Below, in pieces: positions 1,883 through 54,572 of a DNA stretch of 64,000 nucleotides (the first letter of the stretch is position 1; every line of letters begins with the position of its first letter). Origin of the DNA: Actinomadura sp. NBRC 104425 (GTDB taxonomy: Bacteria; Actinomycetota; Actinomycetes; Streptosporangiales; Streptosporangiaceae); assembly GCF_030269545.1 (NCBI RefSeq), contig NZ_BSTN01000016.1, positions 1 through 64,000 on the forward strand, given 5' to 3'. The notes under the pieces are model-generated. The model saw only the letters and a program-made list of their open reading frames with translations. It had not been told where the DNA came from and did no database searches. A program made the position numbers and the translations under genes.

Positions 1883-3781
1883 TCACGGCGCTTCATGGAC
1901 CTCGACGAGACGGATGTGCGCGGGCGGCGGCGCGATCTCGGTGAGCGGGTGCCGGAAGGTCAGCATGGTCCCGTCGTCGCCCTCGGGGACGAACCCGTTG
2001 CGCGGGTAGAAGTCGCGGACCAGGCCGTTGCGGCTGCTGGGCCGGTATCCGGCGAGCACCGCGGCGGCGCCGCGGTCCCGCGCGTGCCGCAGTACCCAGT
2101 TCAGGCACGCCTCCTCGACCGACCGGGAGAAGACGCGGCAGCTGAGCAGGAAGTTGTCGATGTGCAGCAGGTCGCCGCGCCAGCGGGCGAGGACCGCGCC
2201 GACCAGGCCGCTGTCGCCGAACCGGTCGGCGACGTGCACGGCAAGGACGAGCGCGTCGGGGTCGTGCAGCAGCCGCCGGACGTCCTGGGGCTGCAGCCGC
2301 CGGCCGGTCAGGTTGAACTGGTTGGTGCGCAGCGTCAGCTGGGAGACGCGGGCGGCCTCCGGTTCGGTCGCCGGGCCCACCCGCACCCGCACGTCCAGTT
2401 CGCGCAGGTAGTCCTGGACGGAGTCGAAGCGGTCGAGGAACCCCTTGCGGGCCGCCTCCTCCCGGTACCGGGCGGGGCGGACCCGGTCCTCGCCGGTCAG
2501 CTCCCGCTGGTCGAACCAGCCGTCGCGCAGCAGCCGCGCGGCGTGCAGGGCGGGTTCGCCGTCCACGTCGACGACGGCGACGCCGGGCAGTTCGCGCCGG
2601 ACGAGGCCGCGTTCGTAGGGGCTGTCGTCGACGAAGACGAAGCTGTCGACGGCCAGGCCGAGCCGGTCGGCGAGGCCGGCCAGGTTCTCATGCTTGGGCC
2701 GCCAGTTGGCGACGACCTGGACGAAGTCGGCGTCCCGCAGCGCCATCGCCGGGTGGTCCCGCAGCGCGCGCTCCACCAGGTCGGGGTCGTTCTTGCTGAC
2801 GGCGGCCAGCAGCACGCCCTGCGAGCCGAGCTGCTTGGCGACGCGCTGGAACGCCAGGAACGCCTCGCCCCGGTAGCCGCCGCCGAGCTCGATGCCGTCC
2901 ACGCCGTCGTCGCCGAGCACCCCGCCCCACAGCGTGTCGTCCAGGTCGAGCACCAGGCATTTCTTGGTGCGGCCGACGAGGTTTCTGGCCAGGTGGCCGA
3001 TCTCGCGGGCGTAGGCGGCCAGCAGGTCGTCGGTGAGGTGGGCCTTGGCGTAGGTGCCGAGCCGGTCGTCGCCGACCGGGACGCCCTCGGCGACGAGCGG
3101 GTCCAGGTCCACCACCACGACGGACGGGTGCTGCTCGGCCAGCGCCAGCAGGCGGGCGTTGGCCTGCCGCCACACCGCGCCGAGCCGCGCCCTGGAACGC
3201 CAGTCGACGAGCTGCGCGGTGTGGCGGCGCGTCAGCGGCATCGTGTTCAGCACCAGGGTGCCGCGTCCCGTGCCCGTGTACCGCTCGGCGAGCCGTTCGA
3301 TGAGTGCGACCTTGGCGGTGGCGGCGCGTTCGACGTCCTCCGGCGTCCACGGCAGCGGGACCTCGTCGAACACCATGGCCGGGTCGAGCACGCACAGCAC
3401 CAGGTCGGGCCGCGCGGCGGACAGTTCGCTGTCCGGGTCGCCCAGTTCCCGCACGTACCCGTCGAAGCCGGTGACCATGGGACGGGCGACCAGGCCGTGC
3501 CGGGCGAACTCGGCCCGCAGCGGGGGCGTGAGCCCGGACAGGGTGCCGTGCCCGGTGATGCCGACGGAGACGCCCGGAAGGTCGGGGTGGAGCCGTTGGA
3601 TCTCGGCCGGGTCCACCCGTTCCAGCAGGCGTCCGGCGCGCACCAGCTCGCCTTGCGCCTGCTCCTGCTGCGCCAGCGCCGCCACGATCCGGCAGACCAG
3701 CGGGTACTCGGCGGCCAGGCGTCCCGCTGCGGCCAGCTCCAGCAGCGTCCCGGCCGTAAAGTCGGCGACCAACCCCGGCAC
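1883..3781 (-). CDS. FkbH-like HAD-family glyceryl transferase/phosphatase
   Basis: A 632-residue FkbH-family protein. FkbH enzymes take D-1,3-bisphosphoglycerate, remove a phosphate and form glyceryl-S-ACP for polyketide or peptide assembly. The HAD nucleophile motif DLDDT is at residues 279-283, preceded by a long N-terminal region (1-270). The C-terminal third has a GNAT-like acyltransferase region, including LRTNQFNLTGRR and a RNGLVRDFYPRNGF segment. The GTG at 3781 sits almost on top of the Shine-Dalgarno sequence GAGGAGG. A TTG at 3772 has ideal spacing (8 nt) and may be the true start. The genes that turn glyceryl-ACP into methoxymalonyl-ACP are absent here, which favours direct use of the glyceryl unit. 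Confidence 0.9.
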   Translation of the reverse strand: MPGLVADFTAGTLLELAAAGRLAAEYPLVCRIVAALAQQEQAQGELVRAGRLLERVDPAEIQRLHPDLPGVSVGITGHGTLSGLTPPLRAEFARHGLVARPMVTGFDGYVRELGDPDSELSAARPDLVLCVLDPAMVFDEVPLPWTPEDVERAATAKVALIERLAERYTGTGRGTLVLNTMPLTRRHTAQLVDWRSRARLGAVWRQANARLLALAEQHPSVVVVDLDPLVAEGVPVGDDRLGTYAKAHLTDDLLAAYAREIGHLARNLVGRTKKCLVLDLDDTLWGGVLGDDGVDGIELGGGYRGEAFLAFQRVAKQLGSQGVLLAAVSKNDPDLVERALRDHPAMALRDADFVQVVANWRPKHENLAGLADRLGLAVDSFVFVDDSPYERGLVRRELPGVAVVDVDGEPALHAARLLRDGWFDQRELTGEDRVRPARYREEAARKGFLDRFDSVQDYLRELDVRVRVGPATEPEAARVSQLTLRTNQFNLTGRRLQPQDVRRLLHDPDALVLAVHVADRFGDSGLVGAVLARWRGDLLHIDNFLLSCRVFSRSVEEACLNWVLRHARDRGAAAVLAGYRPSSRNGLVRDFYPRNGFVPEGDDGTMLTFRHPLTEIAPPPAHIRLVEVHEAP

Positions 3782-3785
3782 CTCC

Positions 3786-5903
3786 TCAGCCCGATCCCTG
3801 CGGCGGACGGCCGCCGGGCATGGGGCCCCCGCCGGGCGGCGGGCCCATCGGCGGTCCCTGCATGGGCGGCCCGCCGGGAGGCGGACCCTGCATCGGAGGC
3901 GGACCCTGCATCGGAGGCGGCATCATCATGCCGCCGGGCGGCACCCCCTCCAGCGGCGGCAGCCCGGCGCCGTTCGGGGGGTCGCCGTAGCCGGGGCCGG
4001 CGGGCGCGGGCGCGGCGCCGTTGCGGGACGGCTGCCGGGTGAACTGGGTGCGGTGCAGCTCGGCGTAGAGCCCGTCGGCCGCCAGCAGCTCCTCGTGCGT
4101 GCCGCGCTCGACGATGCGGCCCGCGTCGACGACCAGGATCTGGTCGGCGTCGCGGATCGTGGACAGCCGGTGCGCGATCACCAGTGAGGTCCGGCCCCGC
4201 AGCGCGGTCTTCAGCGCCTGCTGGATCGCGGCCTCCGACTCGGAGTCCAAGTGCGCGGTGGCCTCGTCCAGCACCACGATCGACGGCGCCTTGAGCAGCA
4301 GCCGCGCGATCGCCAGGCGCTGCTTCTCACCGCCGGAGAAGCGGTAGCCGCGGTCGCCGACCACGGTGTCCAGGCCCTCGGGCAGGGCGGCGATCAGGTC
4401 CCAGATCTGCGCGGCCTTGCACGCCTCGACCAGTTCCCGTTCCTCGGCGTCGGGACGTGCGTACAGCAGGTTCGCCCGGAGGGTGTCGTGGAACAGGTGC
4501 GCGTCCTGGGTGACCATGCCGACGGTGTCGCGCAGGCAGTCGAACGTCAGGTCCCGCACGTCGTGCCCGCCGATCCGCACGGTCCCCGACAGCGGGTCGT
4601 AGAGCCGCGGCACCAGCTGCGTGATCGTCGTCTTGCCCGCACCGGACGGTCCGACCAGCGCCGTCAGGGTGCCCGCCGGGACGCGGAACGAGATCTGGTC
4701 CAGGGTCAGCGCGTCGTCGCCGCGTTCGGGCGGGGCGCCGTAGCCCTGCAGCGAGGCCAGCGACACCTCCGACGCCTTGGGGTAGCGGAACGACACCGCG
4801 TCGAACTCGATGTCCGGGGCGCCGCGCGAGCGGTCCAGCGCCACCGCGCCGGGCCTTTGCGCGATGAGCGGCTTGAGGTCCAGCACCTCGAACAGGCGGT
4901 CGAAGCTGACCAGCGCGGTCATCACGCTCGCCTGCATCGACGACAGCTGGTTGATCGGGCCGAACAGCCGGGTCAGCAGCACGGCCAGCGCCACCAGCGT
5001 GCCGAGCTGGAACGAGCCGTCCACCACCAGCACGCCGCCGAGCCCGTACACCAGGGCGGTGGCCAGGGAGCCGAGCAGGGTCACCGACACCAGCAGCATC
5101 CGCGAGTACACCGTGGTGACGACGCCGATGTCGCGAACCCGTCCGGCGCGCTCGGTGAACAGGCGCTTTTCGCTGTCGGGGCGCCCGTACAGCTTGGCCA
5201 GCAGCGCGCCGGCGATGTTGAAGCGCTCGTGCATCAGCGTGCCCATCTCGGCGTTCAACTGCATGGACTCGCGCATCAGGCCCTGCAGCCGACGGCCCAC
5301 CAGCCGACCGGGCAGAAGGAACAGCGGCAGCGCCACCAGCGCCAGCAGGGTGATCTGCCAGGACAGGTAGAACATCGTGCCGAGCACGAGGATCAGCGAC
5401 AGCAGGCTGGACGCCGACTGCGACAGCAGGGTGGTGACGGCCTGCTGGGCCGCCACCACGTCGGTGTTCAGCCTGCTGACCAGGGACCCGGTCTGCGTCC
5501 GCGTGAAGAACGCGATCGGCTGCCGCTGGACGTGGTCGAACACCTGGGTGCGCAGGTCGTAGACCAGCCCCTCGCTGATCTTCCCCGACAGCCAGGTCTC
5601 GGTGAACGTCAGCACCGCCTCCAGCAGCGCCAGACCGGCCACCGCCAGCGCGAGCCAGACGACCAGTGCCTTCTCCCGGGGGATGATGCCCTCGTCGATC
5701 ACAATCTTCAGCAGCAGGGGGCTCGCCACCTGCGCCACCGCGACGAGCGAGGTGAGCAGCAGCAGCGCCGCGATGGTCCAGCGGTACGGCCGGGCGTAGG
5801 GAAGGGCGCGCCGCGCCGTGCCGGGGGTGACGCGCCGGCGGGTCGAGTCGGTGTCCTCCCCGAACCCGCGGATGGTCATGACCGGTCCCGGGCCGCCGAT
5901 CAT
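3786..5903 (-). CDS. ABC transporter with fused membrane and ATPase domains (peptide exporter)
   Basis: A 705-residue type I ABC exporter half-transporter: six predicted membrane segments in residues ~35-300, then a nucleotide-binding domain with Walker [10 protein letters not shown], signature FSGGEKQR and Walker [12 protein letters not shown]. All catalytic positions look intact. The ATG at 5903 overlaps the mbtH stop as ATGA; upstream in-frame codons are antisense to mbtH and were rejected. Such exporters accompany mbtH and NRPS genes in glycopeptide clusters, so the likely cargo is the cluster peptide. After the ATPase domain there is an unusual tail of about 60 residues built from PPMQGPP and GGPPMQGP units, rich in Pro, Gly, Met and Gln, which normal family members lack. 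Confidence 0.92.
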
Positions 5904-6118
5904 GGCGCCTGGCGCTCCATCTCCGCGATCAGGCTCTTGGGACGCATGTCGGTCCAGTGCTCCTCGATGTAGTCCAGGCACGCCTGGCGGGTGTCCTCGC
6001 CGTGGACGATCTCCCAGCCCGCCGGCACCTCGGCGAACGTCGGCCACAGCGAATACTGGCCCTCGTCGTTGACGAGGGCGTAAAACGTGCCGTCTTCGTC
6101 GTCGAACGGATTGGCCAC
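5900..6118 (-). CDS. mbtH: MbtH-like NRPS accessory protein
   Basis: A 72-residue MbtH-family protein that binds NRPS adenylation domains and is often needed for their solubility and activity. The family signature is clear: NPFDDEDG at the start, QYSLWP, a conserved PAGW, then [14 protein letters not shown] near the end. The GTG at 6118 follows GAGGAG with 5-nt spacing and gives the usual family length; longer in-frame starts are not supported. The stop overlaps the ABC exporter start (ATGA). As first gene of this leftward operon it directly follows the inverted-repeat operator at 6281-6323. Confidence 0.96.
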
Positions 6119-6384: not shown

Positions 6385-8603
<2,219 letters not shown>

Positions 8604-10343
8604 TCACAGGGGCACGTTGCCGTGCTTGCGCTGCGGCGCCGGTCCGCGCTTGCGCCGCAGCATGGCCAGGCCGCGCGCGACCGCGGCGCGGGTCCGCACC
8701 GGGTCGATGACGTCGTCCACCAGTCCCCGCTCCGCCGAGAACAGCGGGTGCATGAGCTGCCGGGTGTACTCGGCGATCAGTTCGGCGCGCAGGGCGTCGG
8801 GGTCGTCGGCGGCGGCCAGCTGCTTGCGGAAGACCACGTTGACGGCGCCTTCGGCGCCCATCACGGCGATCTCGTTGGTGGGCCAGGCCAGGGACAGGTC
8901 GCAGCCGATCGACCGGGAGTCCATGACGATGTACGCGCCGCCGTAGGCCTTGCGCAGGATCACCTGGACGCGCGGCACCGTCGCCTCGCAGTAGGCGTAC
9001 AGCAGCTTGGCGCCGTGCCGGATGATGCCGTCGTGCTCCTGCTCGACGCCGGGCAGGAAGCCCGGCACGTCCACCAGCGTCACCAGCGGAATGCCGAACG
9101 CGTCGCAGAACCGTACGAATCTGGCGGCCTTCTGCGCGGCGTCGGCGTCCAGCACCCCGGCCAGCACCATCGGCTGGTTGGCCACCACCCCGACGACCTC
9201 GCCGTCGATGCGGCCCAGCGCGCAGATGACGTTGCGCGCCCACTGCTCGTGCAGCTCGATGAACTCCCCGCCGTCCACCAGCTCTTCGACGACCCGGTGC
9301 ATGTCGTAGGGCTTGTTCGGCTCCACCGGGACGATCTCGGCCAGCCGGGGCCGTTCGTCGTCGGCCGCCCCGGTCGGCGCAAGCGCGGGCGCCTCCTCCA
9401 GGTTGTTGGACGGCAGCAGCGACACCAGGTACCGCACCTCGGCCAGGCACGTCTCCTCGTCGTCGTGCACGAACGTGGCCACACCGGTGCGCTCGCCGTG
9501 CACGTCCGCGCCGCCCAGCTCGGCATGGCTCACCCGGTGCCCGCTGACCGCCTCCACCACGTCCGGGCCGGTCAGGTACATCTGCGCGGTGCCGCGCACC
9601 ATGAACGTGAAATCGGTCAGCGCCGGCGAGTACGCCGCTCCGCCCGCGCACGGCCCCATGATCACGCTGATCTGCGGGATCACCCCGGACGCCCGCACAT
9701 TGCGGCGGAAGATCCCCCCGTACCCGTCCAGGGCCATCACGCCCTCCTGGATGCGGGCGCCGCCGCTGTCGTTCAACCCGATCAGCGGCGCGCCGTTCTC
9801 CAGCGCCAGGTCCATCACCTTGTGGATCTTCGCCGCGTGCGCCTCGCCCAGCGCCCCGCCGAACACGGTGAAGTCCTGCGCGTAGACGAACACCCGGCGG
9901 CCGAAGATCTCGCCGGAGCCGGTGATCACGCCGTCGGTGTACGGGCGGCGGTCCGCCATGCCGAGTTCGGCGGCCCGGTGGCGGCGGTACAGGTCGGTCT
10001 CGACGAAGGTGCCCTCGTCCAGCAGCAGGTCGAGCCGTTCCCGCGCGGTGAGCTTGCCGAGCCGGTGCTGCCGTTCGATGGCGGCCCGGTCGCCGCCGAC
10101 GATGCGGGAGCGCAGCCCGGCATGCCGCCGGCGGAGCACGTCCATCGACGGCGGCGCCGGCTGCGGGCGGCGGCCGTTGCCGTTGACGCGGCCGTCCGCG
10201 CCGCCCCGCCCGTCGGTGCTCGCTCGCCCGCCGGTGCTCGCTCGCCCGCCGGTGCTCGCTCGCCCGTCCGAGGCGGCCCGCCCGTTGGCGTGGCCGTTGC
10301 CCTCCGGGGCGTGGCCGAGCTGCGTCTCTAAGGGGGCCGTCAT
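8604..10343 (-). CDS. Acyl-CoA carboxylase beta (carboxyltransferase) subunit, pathway-embedded
   Basis: A 579-residue carboxyltransferase subunit of the propionyl/acetyl-CoA carboxylase type, making malonyl- or methylmalonyl-CoA with a biotinylated alpha subunit encoded elsewhere. Typical segments are DSGGARIQEG, GPCAGGAAYSPALTDF, a YLTGPDVV motif and VDVPGFLPGVEQE. The first ~65 residues are a low-complexity leader with three tandem ASTGGR-type units (18-bp DNA repeat near 10217-10265). ATG 10343 overlaps the hpgT stop (ATGA). Codon 5 is TTA (10331-10329), the rare leucine codon of actinomycetes. Its place in the dpg operon suggests it supplies malonyl-CoA for DpgA, which uses four per Dpg. 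Confidence 0.92.
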   Translation of the reverse strand: MTAPLETQLGHAPEGNGHANGRAASDGRASTGGRASTGGRASTDGRGGADGRVNGNGRRPQPAPPSMDVLRRRHAGLRSRIVGGDRAAIERQHRLGKLTARERLDLLLDEGTFVETDLYRRHRAAELGMADRRPYTDGVITGSGEIFGRRVFVYAQDFTVFGGALGEAHAAKIHKVMDLALENGAPLIGLNDSGGARIQEGVMALDGYGGIFRRNVRASGVIPQISVIMGPCAGGAAYSPALTDFTFMVRGTAQMYLTGPDVVEAVSGHRVSHAELGGADVHGERTGVATFVHDDEETCLAEVRYLVSLLPSNNLEEAPALAPTGAADDERPRLAEIVPVEPNKPYDMHRVVEELVDGGEFIELHEQWARNVICALGRIDGEVVGVVANQPMVLAGVLDADAAQKAARFVRFCDAFGIPLVTLVDVPGFLPGVEQEHDGIIRHGAKLLYAYCEATVPRVQVILRKAYGGAYIVMDSRSIGCDLSLAWPTNEIAVMGAEGAVNVVFRKQLAAADDPDALRAELIAEYTRQLMHPLFSAERGLVDDVIDPVRTRAAVARGLAMLRRKRGPAPQRKHGNVPL

Positions 10344-11830
10344 CGCGACGCCGCGCTCTGCGCCTCGATGAAGCGGGCGAGCCGGGCGGTGCCCTCCTCG
10401 ATCTCCGCCGTGGTCAGGTAGCTGGTGGACAGCCGGATGGCGTGCTCGCCGCCGCCCTGCGGATAGAAGTACGACATCGGCGTCCAGATCACCCCGAAGT
10501 CCTGCGCGGACCGGGCGAGCGCCGCGTTGTCGGCGCGGAACGGGACCTGCATCCGCAGGAAGAACCCCCCGGTGGGCCGGTTCCAGCGCACGCCGAGCGC
10601 GGCGCGGCGGTCGGCCGGGATGCTGCGGTCGAGCCCCGCGAGGACCGCGCGCATGGCCCGCCCGTAGTACTCGGCCGCTTCGGCGTTGAGCACCGAGAGC
10701 CGTCCGTCCGAGGCCAGCAGCGCGCCCGCCACGGCGGCCTGGCTGAGCGAGGAGGTGTTCACCGTCACCATGCTCTTGATCTTGGCGAGTTCGTCCGCCA
10801 GCAGGCCGACGCGGCCGTCGGCGTCCGCGACCGGCTGGTCGGCGATGACGAAGCCGACCCGGGCGCCGGGGAACAGCGTCTTGGAGAACGAGCCGAGGTG
10901 CACGACCCGCTTCTCCCGGTCCAGGGCCTTCAGCGTCGGCAGCGGCGTGCCCGGGCTGACCAGCCGGTAGGGGGTGTCCTCCAGGATGAGGATGTCGTGG
11001 CGGGCGGCCAGGTCGAGCAGCGCGTGCCGGCTCTTCACATCCATCGTGTTGCCCGACGGGTTGGCGTGGTCGGGCACCACGTAGAAGGCGCGCGGGCGGC
11101 GGCCGCGGGCGCGTTCGGCCAGGATCACCGCCTCGACGTCGTCGCAGGAGACGCCGTCCTCCCGCTCCTCGACCGCCGTGACGGCGACGTCCAGCACGCG
11201 GGCCGCACCGGTGATCCCCACGTAGCAGGGGCTGGACACCAGCAGCACGTCGTCGGGGCCGCCCAGGAGGGCGCGCAGGACCAGCAGCATGCCCTCCTGC
11301 GCGCCGACCGTCACCACGAGCGACTCGGGCGGCACGTCGATGCCCTCGTCCACGCGCAGGGAGTCGGCCAGGACGTCCCGGATCTGGCCGGCGGTCGGGC
11401 CGTACTGGAACACGGCGGTGCGCACGTCCTGCGGCGTGCCGCCCTGCGCGGCCAGGTGGTCGAGGAACCGGCGGATGTGCGTGAAGATCTGCTCGTTGTC
11501 GAAGAAGCCGTCATAGGGGCGGCCGGGCGCGAACGAGATCGCCTCGGGATAGCGCAGGGTGATCTCGTTGAGGAAGTTCATGGTGTCCAGGAGCGGGCTG
11601 GACACGCTGGCGTGCAGTTCCTCCTTGCGCAGCACGGCCGCGGCGGCCGCCGGCTCCGGCTTGCCACGGTCGGCGGACGCGGCACCGGGCACGTCACCGG
11701 ACGCTCTACCGGGCACGCTGCCGGGCACGCTGCCGGGTGCGGTGCCGGCCGCGTTGTCGAGCGCGTCGCCGGGCGCGCCGTCGAGCGCGCGGGCCCCGGC
11801 CTGCTGGATATCGATGTCCCCCCCGCTCAC
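10340..11830 (-). CDS. hpgT: PLP-dependent aminotransferase, HpgT-like (phenylglycine aminotransferase)
   Basis: A class I/II aminotransferase of 496 residues from GTG 11830. HpgT forms 4-hydroxyphenylglycine and 3,5-dihydroxyphenylglycine from the glyoxylates. Seen: SSPLLDTMNFLNEI and AISFAPGRPYDGFF near the mature start, DHANPSGNTM with the PLP-contacting Asn-Pro, and LGSFSKTLFPGARVGF with the PLP lysine. The first ~65 residues are Ala/Pro/Gly-rich and not part of the fold. The GTG overlaps the TGA of a 9-codon mini-ORF that has its own ribosome site, so re-initiation from that leader may drive translation. It heads the dpg operon, below the operator at 12038-12068. Confidence 0.9.
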   Translation of the reverse strand: MSGGDIDIQQAGARALDGAPGDALDNAAGTAPGSVPGSVPGRASGDVPGAASADRGKPEPAAAAAVLRKEELHASVSSPLLDTMNFLNEITLRYPEAISFAPGRPYDGFFDNEQIFTHIRRFLDHLAAQGGTPQDVRTAVFQYGPTAGQIRDVLADSLRVDEGIDVPPESLVVTVGAQEGMLLVLRALLGGPDDVLLVSSPCYVGITGAARVLDVAVTAVEEREDGVSCDDVEAVILAERARGRRPRAFYVVPDHANPSGNTMDVKSRHALLDLAARHDILILEDTPYRLVSPGTPLPTLKALDREKRVVHLGSFSKTLFPGARVGFVIADQPVADADGRVGLLADELAKIKSMVTVNTSSLSQAAVAGALLASDGRLSVLNAEAAEYYGRAMRAVLAGLDRSIPADRRAALGVRWNRPTGGFFLRMQVPFRADNAALARSAQDFGVIWTPMSYFYPQGGGEHAIRLSTSYLTTAEIEEGTARLARFIEAQSAASR

Positions 11831-11856
11831 GAGGCGACCGTCCGAGCGTTTTCCAT
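11827..11856 (-). CDS. Putative 9-residue leader ORF overlapping hpgT start
   Basis: ATG 11856 follows GGAG with about 10-nt spacing and encodes MENARTVAS. Its TGA overlaps the hpgT GTG, which has no good ribosome site of its own. This layout fits translational coupling by a mini-ORF. The alternative is an indel in the seven-base G/C run at the hpgT start, in which case MENARTVAS is the true N-terminus of HpgT. Confidence 0.35.
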   Translation of the reverse strand: MENARTVAS

Positions 11857-12037
11857 GATTTCGCTGCTCCGTCCGGGCATGGCGGACCTGTGTGGCATTG
11901 AACTGCGGAGTGTCCTCGGCCCGGTCAGGATTGCACGCGGCGGAACGGCCGACAAGGTCGGACGGCGGTGCCGCACGGCCCGGACGGCGGGGATTGCCGC
12001 AGCAAGCCGATCGATTCACGGCCGGGTCCGGACATCG

Positions 12038-12068
12038 CGTCCAAGCAGAGTTTCTGCACACTTGGACG
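12038..12068. promoter_or_regulatory. StrR/Dbv4-type operator upstream of the hpgT-dpgD operon
   Basis: CGTCCAAG at 12038-12045 and CTTGGACG at 12061-12068 form a perfect 8-bp inverted repeat. Its core is GTCCAA-N17-TTGGAC, the same geometry as the site at 6281-6323. It lies about 208 bp upstream of the hpgT GTG and 135 bp upstream of the tRNA-like gene on the other strand. It is the second predicted target of the StrR-family regulator. Confidence 0.85.
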
Positions 12069-12202
12069 AGCCCCCGCAGGCCCCGTACCAGGCCGGATTT
12101 CCCCGCGGTCCGCTGCTGCCCACAAGACCCCGGCCGGCCGCGCTCCGCAATCTCCGACAATGGACATGGAGAATCCCGCCGGGCCGAAGTTAGAATCGTT
12201 CC

Positions 12203-12276
12203 GCCCCCGTAGCCCAATTGGCAGAGGCGAACCCCTTAAAAGGGTTATGTTGTCGGTTCAATTCCGATCGGGGGTA
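12203..12276 (+). tRNA. tRNA-Leu(UAA)-like gene with short variable loop
   Basis: A 74-nt cloverleaf. Acceptor stem GCCCCCG/CGGGGGT is closed by a G-U pair. The D-stem has 3 bp (GCC/GGC) with loop CAATTGGCAGA, the arrangement of leucine tRNAs. Anticodon stem AACCC/GGGTT has loop CTTAAAA, giving anticodon UAA. The T-arm GTCGG/CCGAT has loop TTCAATT; the discriminator is A73, followed by CC. The variable region is only 5 nt (ATGTT), whereas normal tRNA-Leu, including bldA, has a long variable arm. A TAGAAT -10-like box is at 12191-12196. It lies beside a biosynthetic operon containing a TTA codon. It may be a decoding tRNA or a tRNA-like RNA with another role. Confidence 0.8.
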
Positions 12277-12310
12277 CCGTTCCCGGCGCGGCGGCCTTTC
12301 CCCGGGGCCG

Positions 12311-15136
12311 CTACGCCGGGAAATCCTGGGACGACTGCAGCAGCAGGGTCACCGGAAGGTCGGTCCGGCGGCTGATCTGCAGCTTGCGGTACACCTTCGT
12401 CAGGTGCTGTTCCACGGTGCTGGTGGTGACGCGCAGCCGGCGCGCGATCTGCCGGTTGGTGTACCCGTCGACCGCCAGCGCGGCCACCCGCAGCTCGGCC
12501 ACGCTCAGGCCGTGCAGCAGGTCGGGGCCCGCGGCCTCGCCGCGCTCGTCCTCCCCGGCCGGGCGCGGCGACAGCGTGCCGCCGATCTCGCCGGCGCCGC
12601 ACTCGGCGGCGAGCGCGCGGGCGCGCTGCTCCACGGCGCGGGCCCGCCGCTCCTGGCCGGTGGCGTGGTACAGCTCGCTGAGATCGGCGAGCGCGCGGGC
12701 CAGCTCCAGCCGGTCGCCCGACCGCTCCAGCAGCTCCACCGCCTCGGTGATCAGTTCGGTGCGCCGGTCGACGTCGGAGGCGGCGGCGAGCGTGCGCAGC
12801 GTGGCGCCGCGCGTGCGGGCCTGGGCGGGCGACAGCATCCGCAGCTGCTCGGCCGCGAGCCTCCTGGCGTTCTGGCGGTCGCCGAGGACGAGATGGGCCT
12901 GCGCCATGTCGGTGCGCCACGGCACGAGCCCGGGGCCGTCGAACCCCCACGCCGTCATCAGCTCGCCGCAGGTCTGGAACTCGGCCAGCGCCGCCTTCGG
13001 CCGGTTGATCGCGAGGTAGTAGCGCCCGCGGGCCTGCAGGTGGGGCAGTACGAACGGGCTGTGGAACAGCCCCTCCGGCAGCGGCATGTCGAGGAACTCC
13101 TCGACCTCCTCGTACCGGCCGGCCGCCGTCAGTGACACCACCATGGTGGCGAGCGGGATCGCGATCACCACGCCCCAGCCCTTGGGTGTCATGAGGGTGA
13201 GGGCCTCGCGGGCGCACTTCACCGCGGCCTCCAGGCGGCCGCGCGCGTGGTGCACCAGCGCGCGCATGGCCATGAGGAGGGCCCGGCCCTGCGGCGGCCA
13301 CGAGGCCGTCGACCTGCCGAGGGTGTCGCACCACCGCTCGGCGGCGTCGAGCTCGTCGGCGTAGACCAGGGCCGCGATCGCCGCGATCGGCAGCGGCGAC
13401 CGGAACGCCGGCCCCGCCTCCTCCAGGAGCTGCTCGGCCCGTTGGACCGCTTCTTGGACCGCTCCCCGCGCAAGCGCGTTCACCAGCATCGCCTCGGTGC
13501 GCGGTGAGGGTGCGACAGACACCGGGACGGCGGTGTCCGGTGCGTCCCCCGGCGGGCGCAGGATGTCCCCGAGCCCCTCCAGCCGGGTCAGCCCCGGGTA
13601 GGCGTAGGGCAGCCACCACGGCGACGGCTCGGTGCGCGGCCCGTGCTCGGCCCGCCGCCCGGGGCCGGCGTGCGGCAGGGCGACGCCGCCGGACACCTCC
13701 GTCAGGATCTCCAGCGCGTCGTGGGTACGGCCGAGCCACAGCATCCAGCTGACCAGGGTGGCGTCGCCGCCGGCGGGCAGGCGCCCCTTGCGCAGGCCGC
13801 GGACCAGGTCGGGCAGGTGCCGGGCCGCGATCGCCGGGTCGATCCGCCACTCGGCGCGGGCCAGGTCCAGCTGGACGGCCGGGCGCTGGTCGTCGTCGCC
13901 GCATTCGCGCAGCGCCAGCCGCAGCAGGTCGGTCGCGTCCGACACCCGACCCTCGGCGAACGCCTGCTCGGCCGCCTCCCGCAGGACCGCCACCGCCCAC
14001 GTCCCCCCGGCCCGGTCGGCGGCCAGCAGGCGCTCGGCGACCACCGCGGCGGGCGCGCCGTGGCGGTGCAGCAGCTCGGCCGCGCGCAGGTGCAGCGCGG
14101 TCCGCTCGTCCGGGCGCATCCCGCCCAGCACCGCCGCCCGCAGCGCCTCGTGCCGGACCCCCCCGGCGTCCAGCAGTCCGGCCGCCTGGAGCACCTGGCA
14201 GGTCGCGACGACCGACGCGGCGTCGGCGTCGGCCAGCTCGCCGAGCAGCCCGCCGGACACCCCGTCGGGCAGCACCGCGACGGCGCGGGCGAGCGTCGTG
14301 GCCTCCGCCCGGTACAGGCAGGTGAGCACCGCCTGCCGGAAGGCGTCGCCGAAGATCAGGCTGACCGGCCGGGTCGGCTCCGCCATCCGGTGGTCCTCGA
14401 TCAGCGCGCGCACCAGCAGCGGGTTGCCGCCGGTCACCCGGTGGCACTCGGGCGCCAGCCGCTCCGCGATCGCCGCGCCGACGTGCTCGGCGAGCAGCTC
14501 GGCCACGCCCGACTCCGACAGCGGCCGCAGCCGCAGCCGCCGGCAGTGCGGCTCGCGCAGCAGGTCGGTGTGCAGCAGCGAGTGCGGCCGGGTCGGGCGC
14601 AGGCACTCGGTCAGCACCAGCAGCACCCGGGCGCTGCCGATCCGGCGGGCCAGGTACAGCAGGAACTGCACCGACGCGTCGTCGGCGTGGTGGATGTCGT
14701 CGACCCCGATGACCAGCGGCCGCTGCTCGGCCGCCTTGAGCACGATCGCGGTCAGCCTGCTGAGGATGGGCGCGGGGACCTGGGCCACCGCCTCGCCCGC
14801 CGCGCCGCCCGCCGCCCGGACGCCGAGCGCCCGCACCGTCAGGGACCCGTCCTGGATCAGCCGGTCCGCATGCTCGATCTCCGCGGGCGGCAGCGCGGGA
14901 TCGTGGAACAGCTGGTTGACGGCGCTCAGCGGCAGCTGGCGTTCCGCCCGCGACGCCGACGCGCTCAGGAAGGCGGCCCCGGCCTCGACCGCGCGTCCGG
15001 CGAACGCGTGCATCAGCGTCGTCTTGCCGGTGGCCGCGGCGCCCTCGATCAGCACGACCTTCCCCGGCCGCTCCTGATCCGGTGCCAGCAGATTCTGCAA
15101 AGTGAGCAGTTCCCCCGTCCGCTCCACAATGCGCAT
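12311..15136 (-). CDS. LAL-family (large ATP-binding LuxR) transcriptional regulator
   Basis: A 941-residue LAL regulator. An N-terminal AAA-type ATPase has Walker A GAAATGKTT at about residues 33-41 and a Walker B-like VIGVDDIHHAD. A long helical TPR-like middle follows, and a C-terminal LuxR HTH (VAALAVDGYTNRQIARRLRV, then STVEQHLTKVYRKL) closes it. ATG 15136 is preceded by GGGGGGA with 7-nt spacing. LAL proteins act as activators in several glycopeptide clusters (Dbv3, Tei16 type). It is divergent from a second LAL gene across 497 bp, which suggests cross-regulation. Its 3' end faces the tRNA-like gene on the opposite strand. Confidence 0.93.
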   Translation of the reverse strand: MRIVERTGELLTLQNLLAPDQERPGKVVLIEGAAATGKTTLMHAFAGRAVEAGAAFLSASASRAERQLPLSAVNQLFHDPALPPAEIEHADRLIQDGSLTVRALGVRAAGGAAGEAVAQVPAPILSRLTAIVLKAAEQRPLVIGVDDIHHADDASVQFLLYLARRIGSARVLLVLTECLRPTRPHSLLHTDLLREPHCRRLRLRPLSESGVAELLAEHVGAAIAERLAPECHRVTGGNPLLVRALIEDHRMAEPTRPVSLIFGDAFRQAVLTCLYRAEATTLARAVAVLPDGVSGGLLGELADADAASVVATCQVLQAAGLLDAGGVRHEALRAAVLGGMRPDERTALHLRAAELLHRHGAPAAVVAERLLAADRAGGTWAVAVLREAAEQAFAEGRVSDATDLLRLALRECGDDDQRPAVQLDLARAEWRIDPAIAARHLPDLVRGLRKGRLPAGGDATLVSWMLWLGRTHDALEILTEVSGGVALPHAGPGRRAEHGPRTEPSPWWLPYAYPGLTRLEGLGDILRPPGDAPDTAVPVSVAPSPRTEAMLVNALARGAVQEAVQRAEQLLEEAGPAFRSPLPIAAIAALVYADELDAAERWCDTLGRSTASWPPQGRALLMAMRALVHHARGRLEAAVKCAREALTLMTPKGWGVVIAIPLATMVVSLTAAGRYEEVEEFLDMPLPEGLFHSPFVLPHLQARGRYYLAINRPKAALAEFQTCGELMTAWGFDGPGLVPWRTDMAQAHLVLGDRQNARRLAAEQLRMLSPAQARTRGATLRTLAAASDVDRRTELITEAVELLERSGDRLELARALADLSELYHATGQERRARAVEQRARALAAECGAGEIGGTLSPRPAGEDERGEAAGPDLLHGLSVAELRVAALAVDGYTNRQIARRLRVTTSTVEQHLTKVYRKLQISRRTDLPVTLLLQSSQDFPA

Positions 15137-15633
15137 GCGGCGATCCCCCCGCAAAGGTTGCATTCCGTGTCCGCGCCCCAACGGTCCGGCACTGCCGCGT
15201 CCCACAGTCGTGCTCAGGTACGCATGGCAGGGGGCGTCGACGACCGGTCCTTCATGACGTTCGCATCAGACCGACGACGGATCAAATCACCATCAGCTAG
15301 CATCTGTATGCAGAGAGTAGTTTCCATGGGGTGACCTGCGTCTTCATCCGCACCGATGGAGAACGTCCTGTCCGGACCCTGCCATCTGCCCGCCCGCCTC
15401 GCGCAGCGGCCGAGGCCCGCGCGCCCCCGGACGGCCCCCGCCGCCCCGGCGTCCACTGAGACGAACGTCACGTTACCGCCTTGTGACATCGCCAGTGGTT
15501 GGCTCGCTTCGTCTCCCCTTCCGAGCCGACCGGGCACCAGGAGGACCTCGAATGTCGCACACCGGCCGAGAGAGCGGAACCGTCCACCCCACCGCCGACT
15601 AGCAGGTTGATTCCACTTCCTCGGGGCGCGCAC
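15137..15633. other. Divergent intergenic region between two LAL genes
   Basis: About 497 bp with no convincing gene, carrying the promoters of both LAL regulators. The middle part (15240-15330) is less GC-rich than its surroundings. No copy of GTCCAA-N17-TTGGAC is present, so the StrR-family protein is not predicted to bind here. Confidence 0.5.
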
Positions 15634-18627
15634 ATGAATCTGATCGAGCGAGAACTGGAATTGACGACACTGCGAAGCCTGTTCGCCGAGTCGCTGGACG
15701 GCCACGGGAAGGTGGTGGTCGTCGGCGGCACGGTGGCGTCCGGCAAGAGCGCTCTGCTGCACTCCCTCGCCGAGCACGCCGCCGCGGCGGGCGCGGTCTA
15801 CCTCGGCGCGACGGCGTCGCACGCCGAGCAGCGGTCCCCGCTGGGCGTGGTGCGGCAGCTGTTCCGCGGGGTGGAGCTTCCCCCCGGACGCGAGGACGCC
15901 AGGCGGCTGCTGGACGAGCAGATCGGCACCGCCGCGTTCGCCGGGGGCGAGTTCCAGCCCGAGACCACCGCCCAGACGACCTGGCCCGTCCTGCAGGAGT
16001 TGTGCAGGGTCCTGCTCGGCATGGCGGCGCGCACCCCCCTGGTCATCGGCCTCGACGACGTGCACCACGCCGACGCCGCCTCCCTCAGCTTCCTGTCCTA
16101 CGCGGCGTACCGGCTCAGGGCGGCCCCGATCGTGATGGTGCTCACCGAGCGCATCGGCCCCCGCCGCGAGCACCCCTGGTTCCACGCGGACCTGCAGAGC
16201 CAGCCGCACTACTGGCGGCTGCGCGTCAAGCCGCTGTCGCGCCGCGGGCAGATCCAGCTGCTCAAAACCAGGCTCGCCCCCCGCCAGGCGCACGAGTTCG
16301 CCCCGGTCTGCGACGCGGTCACCGGGGGCAACCCGGCCCTCGTGCAGGCCCTGCTGCAGGACGAGCGGGTCCCGCCGCAGGACGGCCCGGTGCGGGACGC
16401 GGCCGACCTCGCCGTGGGCGACGCGTTCCCCCGGGTCGCGCTGCACTGTCTGCACCGCGGCGGCCCGGAGATGCACCGCGTCGCCCGCGCCCTGGCGGTC
16501 CTGCGCGAGCCGTGCCCGCCCGTCCTGGTGGGCGCGCTGCTGGGGCTGGACGCCGAGTACGTCTCCGACATGATCGACACGATGGACGCCGCGGGGCTGC
16601 TGGACGCCGGCCGGTTCCGTCACCCGGCCGTCCCGGCGGCCGTGCTCGAAGGCATGACCGCCGAGGAGCGCGCGGTGCTGCACGAGCGGGCCGCCAGGCT
16701 GCTGCACGACCGCGGCGCGGCGCCCCGGACCGTCGCCGAGCACCTCATCGCCGCCGCCGAGGCCGCCGGCCGGCCCGCCGCCCCGACGGACCCCGACGCC
16801 ACCGGACCCGCCCAGAAGGACCTCCACCCGGCCGACGAGGAGTCCTGGAAGGTTCCGGTGCTGGTGGAGGCGGCCGAGCAGGCCCGCACCGACGGCGCCG
16901 CGCACACCGCCCTGGTCTGCCTCCGGCTGGCCCGCGAGAACTGCGCGGACGACCGGCGGCGGGCGGAGATCACCATGGCGATGGCCCGCGTCGAATGGCT
17001 CGTCGACCCGGGGTCGGTGGAGCGCCTGCTGCCCGGGCTCGTCGACGCGGTGCGGGCGAAGCGGCTGAACGGGCGGCACGCCGCCAGGCTGCCCGGCTAC
17101 CTGATGTGGCACGGGCGGCCGGGCGAGGCGGCCGAGGTCCTCGGCCCGCTCACAGGCCGGGCGGAGGCGCCGCTGGACTGGTCCGCCTGCTTCCTGACGG
17201 CCACGCGGCTGCTGCTGTCGTGCGTCTACCCGGGGTATGCCGAGGCGGCGGACGGCGCGGCCGCCGACCGGCCCGCCGCGCGGCATGTCGTGCCGGGCCT
17301 GGAGAACCGGCGGCTGCGGGCCGCGGCCGCGCTGCGGGAGGTGCTGACCGGCCGGACGGACCTCGACGTCCCCGGCACCGCCGAGCAGTTCATGCAGGGC
17401 ACCCGGCTCACCGAGACATCCCCCGGGGCGGTGCTGGCGGTGCTGGCGGCGCTGATCTACGACGACCACCCGCACACGGCCGCGCGCTGGTGCGACCCTC
17501 TCCTGGAGGAGGCGGCGGCCCGGCACGAACCGCTGTGGCACGCGACCTTGGCGGCCGCACGCGCGCTGATCTGCGTGCGGCAGGGGGACCTCACCGCCGC
17601 CGCGGACCACGCCCGCACCGCGCTCGCGCGGATCTCCCCGGCGAGCTGGGGAGTGGCGATCGGCGTGCCCATCGCGGCGTCGGTGTACGCGACGACGGCG
17701 ATGGGCCGCTACGAGGACGCCGCCACCCACCTGGGCATCGCGGTGCCCGACGCCATGTTCGACACCCTGGGCGGCCTGCACTACCTGCGGGCGCGCGGCC
17801 GGTTCCACCTGGCGACCGGGCATCCGGAGATAGCCCTGGCGGACTTTGAGGCCTGCGGCGAGCGGATGCGCGACTGGCGGATCGACGTCCCGGGCCTGGT
17901 CCCGTGGCGCACGGACGCGGCGCAGGCGCTGCTGGAGCTCGGCGAGACCGACCGGGCCGCGGAGCTGGCCGACGAGCAGCTGGCCATGGCGCGGCACCGC
18001 ACCGGCCGGACGCTGGGCGTCTCGCTGCGGGTGCGCGCGCTGGCCGCCGCCGACCCGCGGCGCCGCGGCGAGCTGCTCGAGGAGGCGGTGCGCGTCCTGG
18101 AGCGGTGCGACGACCGGTATGAACTGTCGCTCGCGCGCTGTGAGCTCAGCCGGGCCCGGAAGGCGCTCGGCGAGGCGCCGAAGAGAAAGAGCGCGGCGAA
18201 GACGGAGACGGCGCCCAAGGCGGCGCCGGAGCCGAAGAAGGCGCAGGGCGCCGCCCGCGTGCCCGCGCACAACAAGATGCTCCCGCTCACGACGCCGGCG
18301 CGGGACACGATCGCGGCGCCCGCCGATCCGGCCGCCGGGCTGACCGACGCCGAACGGCGGGTCGCCGCGCTGGTCGTCCAGGGCCGGACCAACCGGCAGA
18401 TCGCCGACACCCTGCTGGTCACCATCAGCACCGTAGAGCAGCACCTCACCCGCATCTACCGCAAGCTCGGCGTCACCCGCCGCGCCGACCTCGTGCGGCG
18501 GCTGCGGGCCGGACCACCGGGCTGCCCGCAGGCGTCCGCACCGGCGGGGGCGGCCGAGCCGCCCGGGACGGCCGCGGCGGGCCCGCGGCGTCGCGACGAC
18601 CAGATCACGTCGAGGGGAGGGACATGA
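15634..18627 (+). CDS. Second LAL-family LuxR transcriptional regulator
   Basis: A 997-residue LAL protein similar in build to the divergent one: Walker A GGTVASGKS at residues 31-39, VIGLDDVHHAD, a long helical middle, and a C-terminal LuxR HTH (VAALVVQGRTNRQIADTLLV). A Lys/Ala/Glu/Pro-rich linker of about 35 residues precedes the HTH. ATG 15634 aligns with the first LAL start (MNLIERELEL versus MRIVERTGEL). The stop overlaps the next ATG (ATGA), so it is co-translated with an ABC transporter. That implies it controls, or is coupled to, export or resistance. Confidence 0.93.
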   Translation: MNLIERELELTTLRSLFAESLDGHGKVVVVGGTVASGKSALLHSLAEHAAAAGAVYLGATASHAEQRSPLGVVRQLFRGVELPPGREDARRLLDEQIGTAAFAGGEFQPETTAQTTWPVLQELCRVLLGMAARTPLVIGLDDVHHADAASLSFLSYAAYRLRAAPIVMVLTERIGPRREHPWFHADLQSQPHYWRLRVKPLSRRGQIQLLKTRLAPRQAHEFAPVCDAVTGGNPALVQALLQDERVPPQDGPVRDAADLAVGDAFPRVALHCLHRGGPEMHRVARALAVLREPCPPVLVGALLGLDAEYVSDMIDTMDAAGLLDAGRFRHPAVPAAVLEGMTAEERAVLHERAARLLHDRGAAPRTVAEHLIAAAEAAGRPAAPTDPDATGPAQKDLHPADEESWKVPVLVEAAEQARTDGAAHTALVCLRLARENCADDRRRAEITMAMARVEWLVDPGSVERLLPGLVDAVRAKRLNGRHAARLPGYLMWHGRPGEAAEVLGPLTGRAEAPLDWSACFLTATRLLLSCVYPGYAEAADGAAADRPAARHVVPGLENRRLRAAAALREVLTGRTDLDVPGTAEQFMQGTRLTETSPGAVLAVLAALIYDDHPHTAARWCDPLLEEAAARHEPLWHATLAAARALICVRQGDLTAAADHARTALARISPASWGVAIGVPIAASVYATTAMGRYEDAATHLGIAVPDAMFDTLGGLHYLRARGRFHLATGHPEIALADFEACGERMRDWRIDVPGLVPWRTDAAQALLELGETDRAAELADEQLAMARHRTGRTLGVSLRVRALAAADPRRRGELLEEAVRVLERCDDRYELSLARCELSRARKALGEAPKRKSAAKTETAPKAAPEPKKAQGAARVPAHNKMLPLTTPARDTIAAPADPAAGLTDAERRVAALVVQGRTNRQIADTLLVTISTVEQHLTRIYRKLGVTRRADLVRRLRAGPPGCPQASAPAGAAEPPGTAAAGPRRRDDQITSRGGT

Positions 18628-20421: not shown

Positions 20422-21405
20422 TCAGACGATGTTGGCGACCTGGTGCTCCACCCTCATCGCGAACTCCGACCACATCTGCGAGCAGTCGCGGGCCAGCTGG
20501 GCGACGATGCCACTGCAGTGGGGCGGCACGTTGTTGATGATCTCGTCCCACTCGGCGGCCTTGAGGGTGTGCATGCTGAGCAGCATCAGCAGGTTGCGGC
20601 CGGTCTCGCTGAACCGCAGCGCCGGGTCCGCCTTGAGCCGCTCCACGACGGCCGCGCGGTCCCGGGGCGCCGTGCGGACGGCGGCCCGCCGGGGGTCGCC
20701 GAGGGCGTGCCCGTGGCCGGCGCGCCGGCTGGCCAGGCTCACCGTGTTGCTCCGGCGGCGGGGCAGCGGGTCCTCGCCCCGCCGCATCCGGTTGCGGACG
20801 TCGCGCGCCGTCTCCGGGGAGATCCCCGCGGCCCGCGCGATCTGCCGCAGGGACAGGTCGGGGTTCTTGGCGATCAGTTCCGACGCCAGCCGGCGCCCCT
20901 CGTTGCCGTTGATCGGACGGGCCCGGCCGTCCTGGCCGATCCGGACCGTCTGCGGCGGCACCGTGCCCGCCGTGCGCCTGCGTATGTCCGCGACCGTTCC
21001 CGGGGCGATGCCGGTGACGGAGGCGACCATGCGGTCGGACCACTGCGGATGCGTTTTGATGATCCGTTCCGCCGCGCGCTTGCGGTCGGCCAGCGACAGT
21101 GGCAGACCGTGCGAGATGTTCGATTCGACCGCCACCACGAAGGCGTCGGCCTCGTCCCCGTCGAAGAACCTGACCGCAATCCGGTCCTCGCCGCGGAGCT
21201 TGGCCGCCTTGAGCCGGTGCAGCCCGTCGATCACCCGCATCGTCGCGCGGTGCACGATGATGGGCGGCAGTTCGGTCTGCGCCGCGGCCAGCACCTCCAC
21301 GTGCTCGGCGTCCTCTCCGGACGTCCGCGGCGAGTCGGCGCCGGCCAGTTTGCTGATCTCCACGTAGACGACCGGTTCGCGGTCGATGTTCCGGTGCCCC
21401 TCCAC
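20422..21405 (-). CDS. StrR-family pathway-specific activator (ParB-like fold)
   Basis: A 327-residue StrR/Bbr/Dbv4-type regulator. The ParB/sulfiredoxin-like N-terminal region covers about residues 11-110 (DREPVVYVEISKL, VIDGLHRLKAAKLRG). Two helix-turn-helix segments follow, around RMVASVTGIAPGTVADIRRR and SLRQIARAAGISPETARDV. GTG 21405 follows GGGGAG with 5-nt spacing; longer in-frame starts lack support. StrR-type proteins activate glycopeptide and aminoglycoside clusters by binding inverted repeats. Two matching sites occur here, upstream of the mbtH and hpgT operons, and none upstream of this gene, so autoregulation through that motif is not indicated. Confidence 0.92.
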   Translation of the reverse strand: MEGHRNIDREPVVYVEISKLAGADSPRTSGEDAEHVEVLAAAQTELPPIIVHRATMRVIDGLHRLKAAKLRGEDRIAVRFFDGDEADAFVVAVESNISHGLPLSLADRKRAAERIIKTHPQWSDRMVASVTGIAPGTVADIRRRTAGTVPPQTVRIGQDGRARPINGNEGRRLASELIAKNPDLSLRQIARAAGISPETARDVRNRMRRGEDPLPRRRSNTVSLASRRAGHGHALGDPRRAAVRTAPRDRAAVVERLKADPALRFSETGRNLLMLLSMHTLKAAEWDEIINNVPPHCSGIVAQLARDCSQMWSEFAMRVEHQVANIV

Positions 21406-22092
21406 TATGACTCCCCTACGATTCGATCTCACCTGTGTACAGCGGGGTGGCCTGCGCCCACCGGTCCGGGGGAATGCGCCCGGCATACCGGTACACGCAA
21501 CGGAAACTCGAACAACTCCGACACGCCGGCGACGGGGGAGCCTCTACAGGCCGTTCTGGCGAGCCGTACTCTTACTCTTGCAGAAGGAATGCACGCACAC
21601 CCGAGTGCGCGGTTCACCGCCCGAAACGTTGACGGGATGCTATGGCGGGTGTTCCGGGTCGGCACCTCGGTCGCATGGACTGACGGTTTCTCTTCGCGCC
21701 TTTTTGCTCCTTCTTCAAGCCCCCCAAGAAGGTGATAGAAGCCCGAACAGGGATTTCCATCAAAACGTTGATGACGCTAACAGCGGGGGTCGGCCAGGGG
21801 TACCCCTGAACAACCCCTACGCCGCTCCCCTAGGAACCGGTGTGGCGGCAGTGCCTGAATGGGCTGACGTGCCCTAAGGCGTGCCATGCCCGCCGGGACG
21901 GAGGCCCAGCGCCGGGCCAGTGGTCCACCGAAAACCGCCCGCAAGGGTCACCGAACATGGTCCATGTGTGCACAGCCGGTAGGGGATTACCCGATGGCGG
22001 CAAGGAGGGACTAGCGGCGAGGCAACCCTGGTGCCCGCCACCCCTTGAGCCCCCGAGCCCTCCCCGCCACCGGGGCGGGCGCCGGGGCGGTG
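21406..22092. other. Long intergenic region at the cluster border
   Basis: About 690 bp without a supported gene, upstream of the StrR-family gene and downstream of the acyl-CoA dehydrogenase. It contains a 6-bp palindrome CATCAA-AACG-TTGATG at 21758-21773, and the word AACGTTGA also occurs near 21625. Part of 21780-22080 could fold, but it matches no riboswitch or RNA family I recognise. It probably marks the cluster boundary. Confidence 0.45.
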
Positions 22093-30134: not shown

Positions 30135-31397
30135 ATGCCGCCCCGCCAGCGCCCACGCCCCAAGGACCGGAAGGAGTCGATCGCCCTCGTCGCCGCGCGG
30201 CTGTTCTGCGCCCGCGGCTACCACAACGTCGGCATCGAGGACATCGCCCGGGAGGTCGGCATCACCGGCCCGGCGATCTACCGGCACTACCCGACCAAGC
30301 AGGACGTGCTCGCCGCGGCCGTGCGGGAACTGGGCCTGCGGTTCGCCGAGTGCGTCGAGTCCGGCGCCGAGGGGGATACGCCCGCCGACCGCCTGCGGGC
30401 CGTGCTGCGGGCGCTGGTGCGCTACGGCCTGGAGCGGCGCACCGTGGCCCGGCTCTACCAGTGGGAGGGCCGCCATCTCGACGCCGAGCGGCAGGCGGCG
30501 CTGGCCGTGCCGTTCGACCGCGCCGTGCGCACGCTGCGCGGACTGCTGCTGGGGGTGCGGCCCGGGCTGTCGCGGCGGGACGCCGCGCTGCTGGTGGCCG
30601 CGGCGCTGAGCGTGATCGCCAGCCCCGCCACCCACCGGGCGGCTCTGGCCCGGGCCAAGGCCGAGCGCACCCTGCTGGACTGCGTGGACGCCGTGCTCGC
30701 CGTCGACCTGCCCGCGCCGCCCGCCGAGCCGCCGCCGCGCCGGCCCCCGGACCGGTTCGCACTGCTCCCCCGCCGCGAGCGGCTGCTCGCCGAGGCGGTG
30801 CGGCTGTTCCACGAACACGGCTACCACCAGGTGAGCATGGCCGATATCGGCCGCGCCGCCGGGATCACCGCCTCCAGCGTCTACACGCACTTCACGGGCA
30901 AGGCCGAGCTGCTGGCCGCCGCCTACGACCGCGCCACCGGCCGTCTGGAGCACGCCGCCGCCGAGGCGCTGGTCGGCGCGGGCTCGCCGGGGCGGGCGCT
31001 GCACCGGCTGGTGGACACCTACGTGCGGCTCACGTTCGCGCACGCGGACCTGGCCGCGGTCTACGTGTCCGAGAGCGAGAACCTGGCCCCGCCCGACCTG
31101 CGGCGGCTGCGCGCCGCGCAGCGCCGGCACGTCGACACCTGGGTCGGCCTGGTCGCCGAGCTGCGCCCCGGAGAGGAGCCGGCCGCGATCCGGTTCCGGG
31201 TGCACGCGGCGCTGAACGTCGTCACCGATCTCGCCCGCTCCGCAGGCCCGTCGGTGACCGAGGCGCGGACCGCCGCCCTGCTCGGTCCGATGCTGGCGCC
31301 CCCGCCCGCAGGAGAGGTGGACAGCGAGGCGGAGGCGGGGCGTGCGGCCGGGGTCAGCCCTGCGGCGGGGGCGCCTTCCGGTCGGCGATGGCGGTGA
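30135..31397 (+). CDS. Tandem TetR-type regulator (two TetR domains in one protein)
   Basis: A 420-residue regulator with two complete TetR-like halves. The first HTH is near residues 18-62 (ARLFCARGYHNVGIEDIARE, then GPAIYRHYPTKQDVL). The second is near 220-262 (AVRLFHEHGYHQVSMADIGR, then SSVYTHFTGKAELL). Double-TetR proteins of about 400 residues are known in actinobacteria, frequently beside acyl-CoA genes. Divergent from the acyl-CoA ligase gene (173 bp apart), it probably represses that operon with an acyl-CoA ligand. The last ~15 codons overlap the 3' end of the convergent TetR gene by 44 bp. Confidence 0.88.
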   Translation: MPPRQRPRPKDRKESIALVAARLFCARGYHNVGIEDIAREVGITGPAIYRHYPTKQDVLAAAVRELGLRFAECVESGAEGDTPADRLRAVLRALVRYGLERRTVARLYQWEGRHLDAERQAALAVPFDRAVRTLRGLLLGVRPGLSRRDAALLVAAALSVIASPATHRAALARAKAERTLLDCVDAVLAVDLPAPPAEPPPRRPPDRFALLPRRERLLAEAVRLFHEHGYHQVSMADIGRAAGITASSVYTHFTGKAELLAAAYDRATGRLEHAAAEALVGAGSPGRALHRLVDTYVRLTFAHADLAAVYVSESENLAPPDLRRLRAAQRRHVDTWVGLVAELRPGEEPAAIRFRVHAALNVVTDLARSAGPSVTEARTAALLGPMLAPPPAGEVDSEAEAGRAAGVSPAAGAPSGRRWR

Positions 31398-31989: not shown

Positions 31990-32064
31990 GCGGCCATCTT
32001 GACAGACCCGCCGGAGCGGCCTTCACTTTCTGAAAACGCTTGTTATCAGATCAGCGGAGGCACC

Positions 32065-32901: not shown

Positions 32902-32968
32902 CGACACCGACCGGTCTGCGGCATCGACCGGTCCGCAGACACCGACGACAAGCCATGAGGAGTGACTC

Positions 32969-41459: not shown

Positions 41460-41460
41460 G

Positions 41461-44128: not shown

Positions 44129-44221
44129 GGCCGTCACCTCCTCCCCGGACACGCCGTGGGACACACCGTCCGACCGCCGCCGCGGCGGCGACCCGGATGT
44201 GGGCACGGCCACATTAGCGAT

Positions 44222-44264
44222 TTGTTGACGGTTCGCCAATAGTGGCTGACCACTTGCCAATCGT
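44222..44264. promoter_or_regulatory. Candidate mce operon operator
   Basis: It contains TTGTTGACGGTTC (44222-44234), then GCCAAT, the palindrome AGTGG-CTGA-CCACT and a second TTGCCAAT. The same 13-mer and two GCCAAT elements occur at 33918-33960, in opposite orientation at the other end of the mce/TetR block. The location just upstream of yrbEA fits a TetR operator. Confidence 0.55.
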
Positions 44265-45419: not shown

Positions 45420-45671
45420 CGCTTCGAACTCCCTGGCGCGGTGATACTCCCACTGTGCACGCGCCGCGACGCTCCCGGCAAGCTTTCTGTGATCATTTCG
45501 GTGCCCCCGTCGTCTGCGCGCCGGAGCGCGTCCTACCCTTGACACATCGGGGGACCGTATTGGGACCTGGCCGAGGATTTCACTGTGTCCTGAGACGCAG
45601 ACCGACGTTCCGAACGGTGCTTAACTTGATCGGAGCGAGGGGACCTCTGCCCGAATGCCGGGGAGAAACGC

Positions 45672-54509: not shown

Positions 54510-54572
54510 CGCGTGATCCGCGTCCGGTGGCCAGGCCAGGGCGGTCCCGACCTCCACGGGAGCCATCGGACG

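Follow-up and report, generated by a model that had tools for sequence, protein, structure and literature searches.

A short-arm tRNA-Leu(UAA) gene within a dpg-containing NRPS cluster of Actinomadura as a probable cluster-resident UUA decoder

The closest described counterpart of the gene analysed here is Streptomyces bldA, a leucine tRNA with the anticodon UAA whose codon, UUA, is found in genes for biosynthesis and regulation, frequently close to their starts. We have analysed a 64-kb stretch of DNA (the window) from Actinomadura sp. NBRC 104425 that holds a tRNA gene with these same properties. While bldA has the long arm of class II tRNAs and, as a lone core gene, controls clusters from a site outside them, the window tRNA is a short-arm second copy lying within a cluster, and the core copy of its genome has a C at position 33 (C33). 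Animal mitochondrial tRNA-Leu(UUR) is likewise without the long variable arm and is charged via A73 and A14 (PMC9976931), but the window tRNA is bacterial, has standard D/T-loop contacts and is of unrelated origin. A mycobacterial tRNA-array tRNA-Leu(UAG) (PMC6582537) is also actinobacterial with a short variable loop, but it has another anticodon, belongs to a large array and accompanies a normal copy retained in the genome. Glycopeptide/ramoplanin-type Dpg clusters share with the window cluster DpgC, an aminotransferase, an MsbA-like exporter, a StrR-like regulator and a large NRPS; they differ in the tRNA gene, as no tRNA-Leu lies close to any of 20 DpgC loci from other genera. Our literature search, mostly outside subscription journals, gave no direct precedent for a cluster-borne tRNA or an actinobacterial short-arm tRNA-Leu, and the accessible part of a Streptomyces rochei paper describes no cluster-borne tRNA.

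ARAGORN calls a single tRNA gene in the window, tRNA-Leu(taa) at 12203-12278(+). The Rfam RF00005 match spans 12203-12276(+) with 57.4 bits (E 8.9e-10), well over the gathering score of 29, and so supplies the covariance score called for in an earlier note on this DNA. The window gene is confirmed as a genuine tRNA gene. The tRNA (12203..12276, plus strand) has a class-I shape, and the features read in the earlier note are all present: a D-arm with a 3-bp stem and an 11-nt loop, the anticodon UAA (within the loop CUUAAAA, with U33) and a 5-nt variable loop, ATGTT, in place of the class II long arm. The discriminator is A73, CCA is not encoded, and folding recovers the cloverleaf at -28.3 kcal/mol (z -1.98). 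Leucylation in E. coli requires A73, A15-U48, G18G19 and A20a and does not require the long arm (review, PMC9976931), and the window tRNA carries all of the leucylation elements known from E. coli. U8, A14-A15, A20a, U48 and A73 are found in 42/42 tRNA-Leu(UAA) sequences of the genus, G18G19 being set by the search pattern. That the gene might be a decayed tRNA is contradicted by the stems of 11 distinct dpg-cluster copies, which are paired at 220/220 positions, with two-sided, compensated changes at several positions of the acceptor, anticodon and T stems.

A sigma70-type promoter is predicted at 12167..12196 (plus strand), with the -35 hexamer TGGAGA, an 18-nt spacer and the -10 hexamer TAGAAT beginning 12 nt upstream of the gene; shuffled sequence gave 0.0 such matches on average. 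A TANN[AC]T box is present in 12/12 dpg-cluster copies (at -12/-13, but at -18 in two; 0.5 expected) and at -12/-13 in 11/11 core copies (0.4 expected). It was found in 0/10 copies of a second accessory group, the GCCTCC group (L211, L213, L232-L239). Directly 3' of the tRNA a GC hairpin (12279..12324, plus strand; -36.8 kcal/mol, z -3.46) overlaps the 3' end of the neighbouring LAL gene. It has no T-run, a consensus scan found no terminator with a T-tail after the tRNA, and the predicted fold is possibly a terminator or processing signal.

The short variable loop is not peculiar to this gene. We defined the short-arm lineage by a GCCCAA..GG.AG.GGC D-arm, the anticodon UAA and a short variable loop, all of which the window tRNA has. 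Among 396 genomes sampled across the phylum, comparison of the matching rows gave 52 genomes with the short-form pattern, 178 with the class II pattern (a few of these being chance matches) and 0 with both; the zero overlap has P 1.5e-15, uncorrected for kinship. The two patterns are strict, and many genomes therefore fall outside both. With the class II pattern, bldA is recovered from every genome of the Streptomyces-like family f16 but from 0/65 congeners of the window strain. The short form occurs in Mycobacterium, Nocardia, Rhodococcus, Gordonia, Corynebacterium and Microbacterium, and also in Arthrobacter, Amycolatopsis, Pseudonocardia, Nocardiopsis and Actinomadura. Judged from this sequence survey, a class-I-shaped tRNA-Leu(UAA) takes the place of the bldA-type class II tRNA in much of Actinomycetota, and the short loop is its usual form in many of them, neither decay nor a unique feature. 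In genomes of the Mycobacterium, Nocardia and Arthrobacter types, UUA is apparently read mainly by this bacterial leucine tRNA, which has no long arm. According to a 2023 identity review, tRNA-Leu and tRNA-Ser lack the long arm in animal mitochondria alone (PMC9976931); the short-form actinobacterial genomes appear to be an exception to this statement.

The earlier note had asked whether the genome has a separate normal bldA. None was found: among 63 tRNA matches (173 contigs, 99.7% complete) there is no class II tRNA-Leu(UAA), the ten class II tRNAs being Ser (five), Tyr and Leu TAG, GAG, CAG and CAA, and a query with an S. coelicolor bldA sequence gave no full-length match. The genome also contains tandem duplicated short-arm tRNA-Leu pairs, GAG+CAA and GAG+CAG (L017, G000:C3:411311-411871), and, separated by 2 kb, nearly identical tRNA-like genes that have the same body with the anticodons GGC and CAA (L018, G000:C28:16881-18839). 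The window gene is nevertheless not the only UUA tRNA of its genome (G000), since a second short-arm copy, the C33 core copy, lies at C1:310706-310778(-) (L022/L221). By row count, a core tRNA-Leu(UAA) with the loop CCTAAAA (C33) is present in 60/65 Actinomadura/Spirillospora genomes, and a comparison of 11 genomes showed conserved synteny around it, with 8-10 shared genes. According to a pattern search, 32 of the 60 have no other UUA tRNA. C33 is also present in Nocardiopsis (L058, L101). A U at position 33 is near-universal in tRNA anticodon loops and matters for the anticodon turn; the chromosomal C33 copy would be expected to decode UUA poorly.

In 31 genomes there is a U33 copy in addition to, or instead of, the core copy, and two more have U33 in the apparent core copy. 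Such accessory U33 copies also lie beside BTAD/SARP (AfsR-type) regulators (L211, L213, L219, L234), HtpG with a halogenase, and a SpoIIE phosphatase. In 13 genomes, in unrelated contexts, a cold-shock-domain protein with a conserved C-terminal extension is encoded less than 7 kb from a U33 tRNA-Leu(UAA) (L204:12824-13237, L207:10697-11119, L212:9420-9824, L218:14966-15373 and nine more genomes). It may be an RNA-binding partner of the tRNA, but we rejected it as part of the explanation here: it is absent from the window, its gene in this genome being at C11:47050, unlinked to the tRNA, and for about 25 tRNA copies it lies elsewhere in the genome.

Within the window the tRNA sits, as the earlier note had placed it, beside the dpg operon and a LAL gene. 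The minus-strand operon comprises a PLP aminotransferase ORF (10340..12217; Pfam Aminotran_1_2, 4.9e-23), HpgT-like by context, a carboxyltransferase gene (8604..10343) whose start overlaps the upstream gene's stop (ATGA), and DpgC, (3,5-dihydroxyphenyl)acetyl-CoA 1,2-dioxygenase (7191..8561; NF042432, 748.5 bits against a cut-off of 530). The true start of the aminotransferase is probably near 11.82 kb, in which case overlap with the tRNA is not required. Further along the minus strand follow a DpgD-like enoyl-CoA hydratase inferred from translation (6385..7200, the end of ORF 6385-8556, start approximate), the MsbA-like ABC exporter of the cluster (3786..6047), an FkbH-domain protein (1883..3781; TIGR01686, 295.9 bits) and an NRPS with condensation and partial adenylation domains, truncated by the contig end (1..1623). 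On the other side lie the LAL regulator (AAA_16 + LuxR; 12311..15205, minus strand), convergent with the tRNA, a second LAL regulator (15499..18627, plus strand) and an HTH_23 regulator (20422..21486, minus strand), which is probably StrR/Bbr-like, judged by a motif, and whose homologues beside the tRNA in other clusters contain TTA. The dpgA of this genome is on another contig, C21. More distant in the window are two MPAB oxygenase genes (31342-33913) adjoining an mce operon of MlaD/MlaE proteins (35841-44260, minus strand), a conflict-system-like EAD2 / VMAP / NB-ARC-TPR gene group (44403-53230) and, about 42 kb from the tRNA, a Trp/Tyr-type tRNA synthetase gene (54513-55553, plus strand), a housekeeping or resistance copy.

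The association with dpgC is conserved. DpgC is encoded in 15/65 genomes of the genus, and 12 of these 15 have a U33 copy no more than 10 kb from dpgC (in kb: G000 3.8, G006 1.0, G007 3.7, G011 9.2, G017 9.3, G018 3.6, G020 3.9, G022 6.1, G063 3.6, G064 4.5, G072 6.0, G078 8.0). A U33 copy is present in all 15 DpgC genomes, versus 18/50 of the others (P 5e-6). The search for the same gene in related clusters proposed in the earlier note thus succeeded, and the copies are not random degenerate ones. Random placement would give such linkage with a probability of about 3e-29, a figure that ignores shared ancestry; the 12 clusters are related and are not independent cases. How the tRNA is placed among the aminotransferase, LAL and StrR-like genes varies between groups, which suggests that the linkage to dpgC has outlived rearrangement. 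The three genomes with DpgC and no nearby tRNA are G053, G054 and G065; the G065 contig is merely 4.5 kb long, and its one tRNA-Leu(UAA) copy has U33. An 82% tRNA match in N. gerenzanensis was rejected as a related locus, as the surrounding +/-12 kb has no gene in common with the cluster.

The sole credible TTA in the window stands at codon 5 in the carboxyltransferase gene (ATG ACG GCC CCC TTA GAG). In the same genome dpgA has TTA at codon 17, and six more tRNA-bearing clusters (G022, G072, G011, G017, G078, G006) have it at codons 13-20 of dpgA. The early TTA is absent from dpgA in the tRNA-bearing clusters G007, G018, G020, G063 and G064, and is likewise present in G065 and G054. TTA codons are nevertheless present at 12/12 tRNA-bearing dpg loci. 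With genes called by GC3 under an identical rule for every set, there are 0.616 TTA per 1000 codons around the 12 dpg copies versus 0.147 in random stretches (Mann-Whitney P 6e-4); the density around core copies is also 0.147, and homology-aligned coding holds 36/44 of the TTA codons. The contrast with dpg clusters of other genera, which have 0.362 per 1000 codons and no nearby tRNA-Leu, is weaker (P 0.02). Since those clusters are TTA-raised without the tRNA, part of the enrichment is shared by clusters in general.

These results suggest that the gene is probably a functional UUA-reading leucine tRNA and a cluster-resident decoder belonging to the dpg-containing NRPS cluster. Of the roles entertained in the earlier note, a specialised decoder of TTA codons thus has good support from the linkage to dpgC, the promoter, the tRNA structure and the TTA codons. 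It might instead read UUA throughout the cell's mRNAs and be merely housed in the cluster, the linkage reflecting shared horizontal transfer. The U33 copies at other loci (SARP regulators, HtpG with halogenase, SpoIIE phosphatase) and in 18/50 genomes without DpgC are consistent with such a genome-wide decoder. The 12/15 linkage, however, has been maintained through rearrangements; TTA is raised around the dpg copies, while the rise around other accessory copies is not significant (P 0.10). We consider this alternative rather unlikely. Still less probable is that the gene is a redundant, hitchhiking copy without a role, left by a duplication or as an integration-site relic. The genome already has a core copy, and tRNA genes are common integration sites. 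The window copy, however, shares only about 79% identity with core-type copies, retains all stem pairs with compensatory changes and has a conserved promoter box, and no integrase was found among the annotated window genes.

A role in supplying leucyl groups to a tRNA-dependent enzyme of peptide tailoring in the cluster, also considered in the earlier note, would fit the location in a peptide cluster and the leucine identity elements. It found no support: the cluster genes examined include no tRNA-dependent transferase, with no match to FemABX, CDPS, PEARL or L/F-transferase among the examined window genes (the NRPS region being partly annotated) and the G078 flank, and we regard this role as very improbable. 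Capture from a phage or plasmid, with retention as a defence or translation spare, we judge equally improbable. Short-arm leucine tRNAs do occur in the Streptomyces phages Yaboi/Genie2, the Sinorhizobium phage Phosso and Nostoc plasmid arrays, but the best full-length phage match is 76%, against up to 95% for chromosomal relatives in the genus, and no phage-like genes are annotated nearby in the window. In one such array, on plasmid3 of Nostoc sp. HK-01 (L004), 25 tRNAs include Leu CAA, TAG, GAG and TAA genes, all of 75-78 nt with a short arm.

For the preferred reading, a cluster-resident decoder, we envisage that the tRNA would be transcribed with the cluster or at the onset of production and charged by the ordinary LeuRS. 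The C33 chromosomal copy would read the UUA codons of cluster mRNAs poorly, and the cluster tRNA would supply a U33 decoder for efficient translation of the dpgA, carboxyltransferase and regulator mRNAs, raising UUA decoding while the cluster is on. The tRNA would then be a cluster-situated translational enabler, a 'local bldA'. We put forward more tentatively, as somewhat short of an even chance, the idea that the tRNA acts as a switch, a dedicated U33 tRNA overriding the weak C33 chromosomal decoder and licensing UUA-marked cluster genes.

The presence of a conserved tRNA in at least 12 clusters with UUA-containing genes suggests that this peptide-antibiotic cluster brings its own message-reading tool. 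If this is true, a biosynthetic cluster would have its own codon-specific tRNA, a form of cluster-situated control that we have not found described. The core copy, having C33, provides a natural test case for the role of U33. The silence of clusters in hosts without a suitable UUA decoder would also be explained, and co-expression of the tRNA or recoding of TTA would offer a simple handle for their activation.
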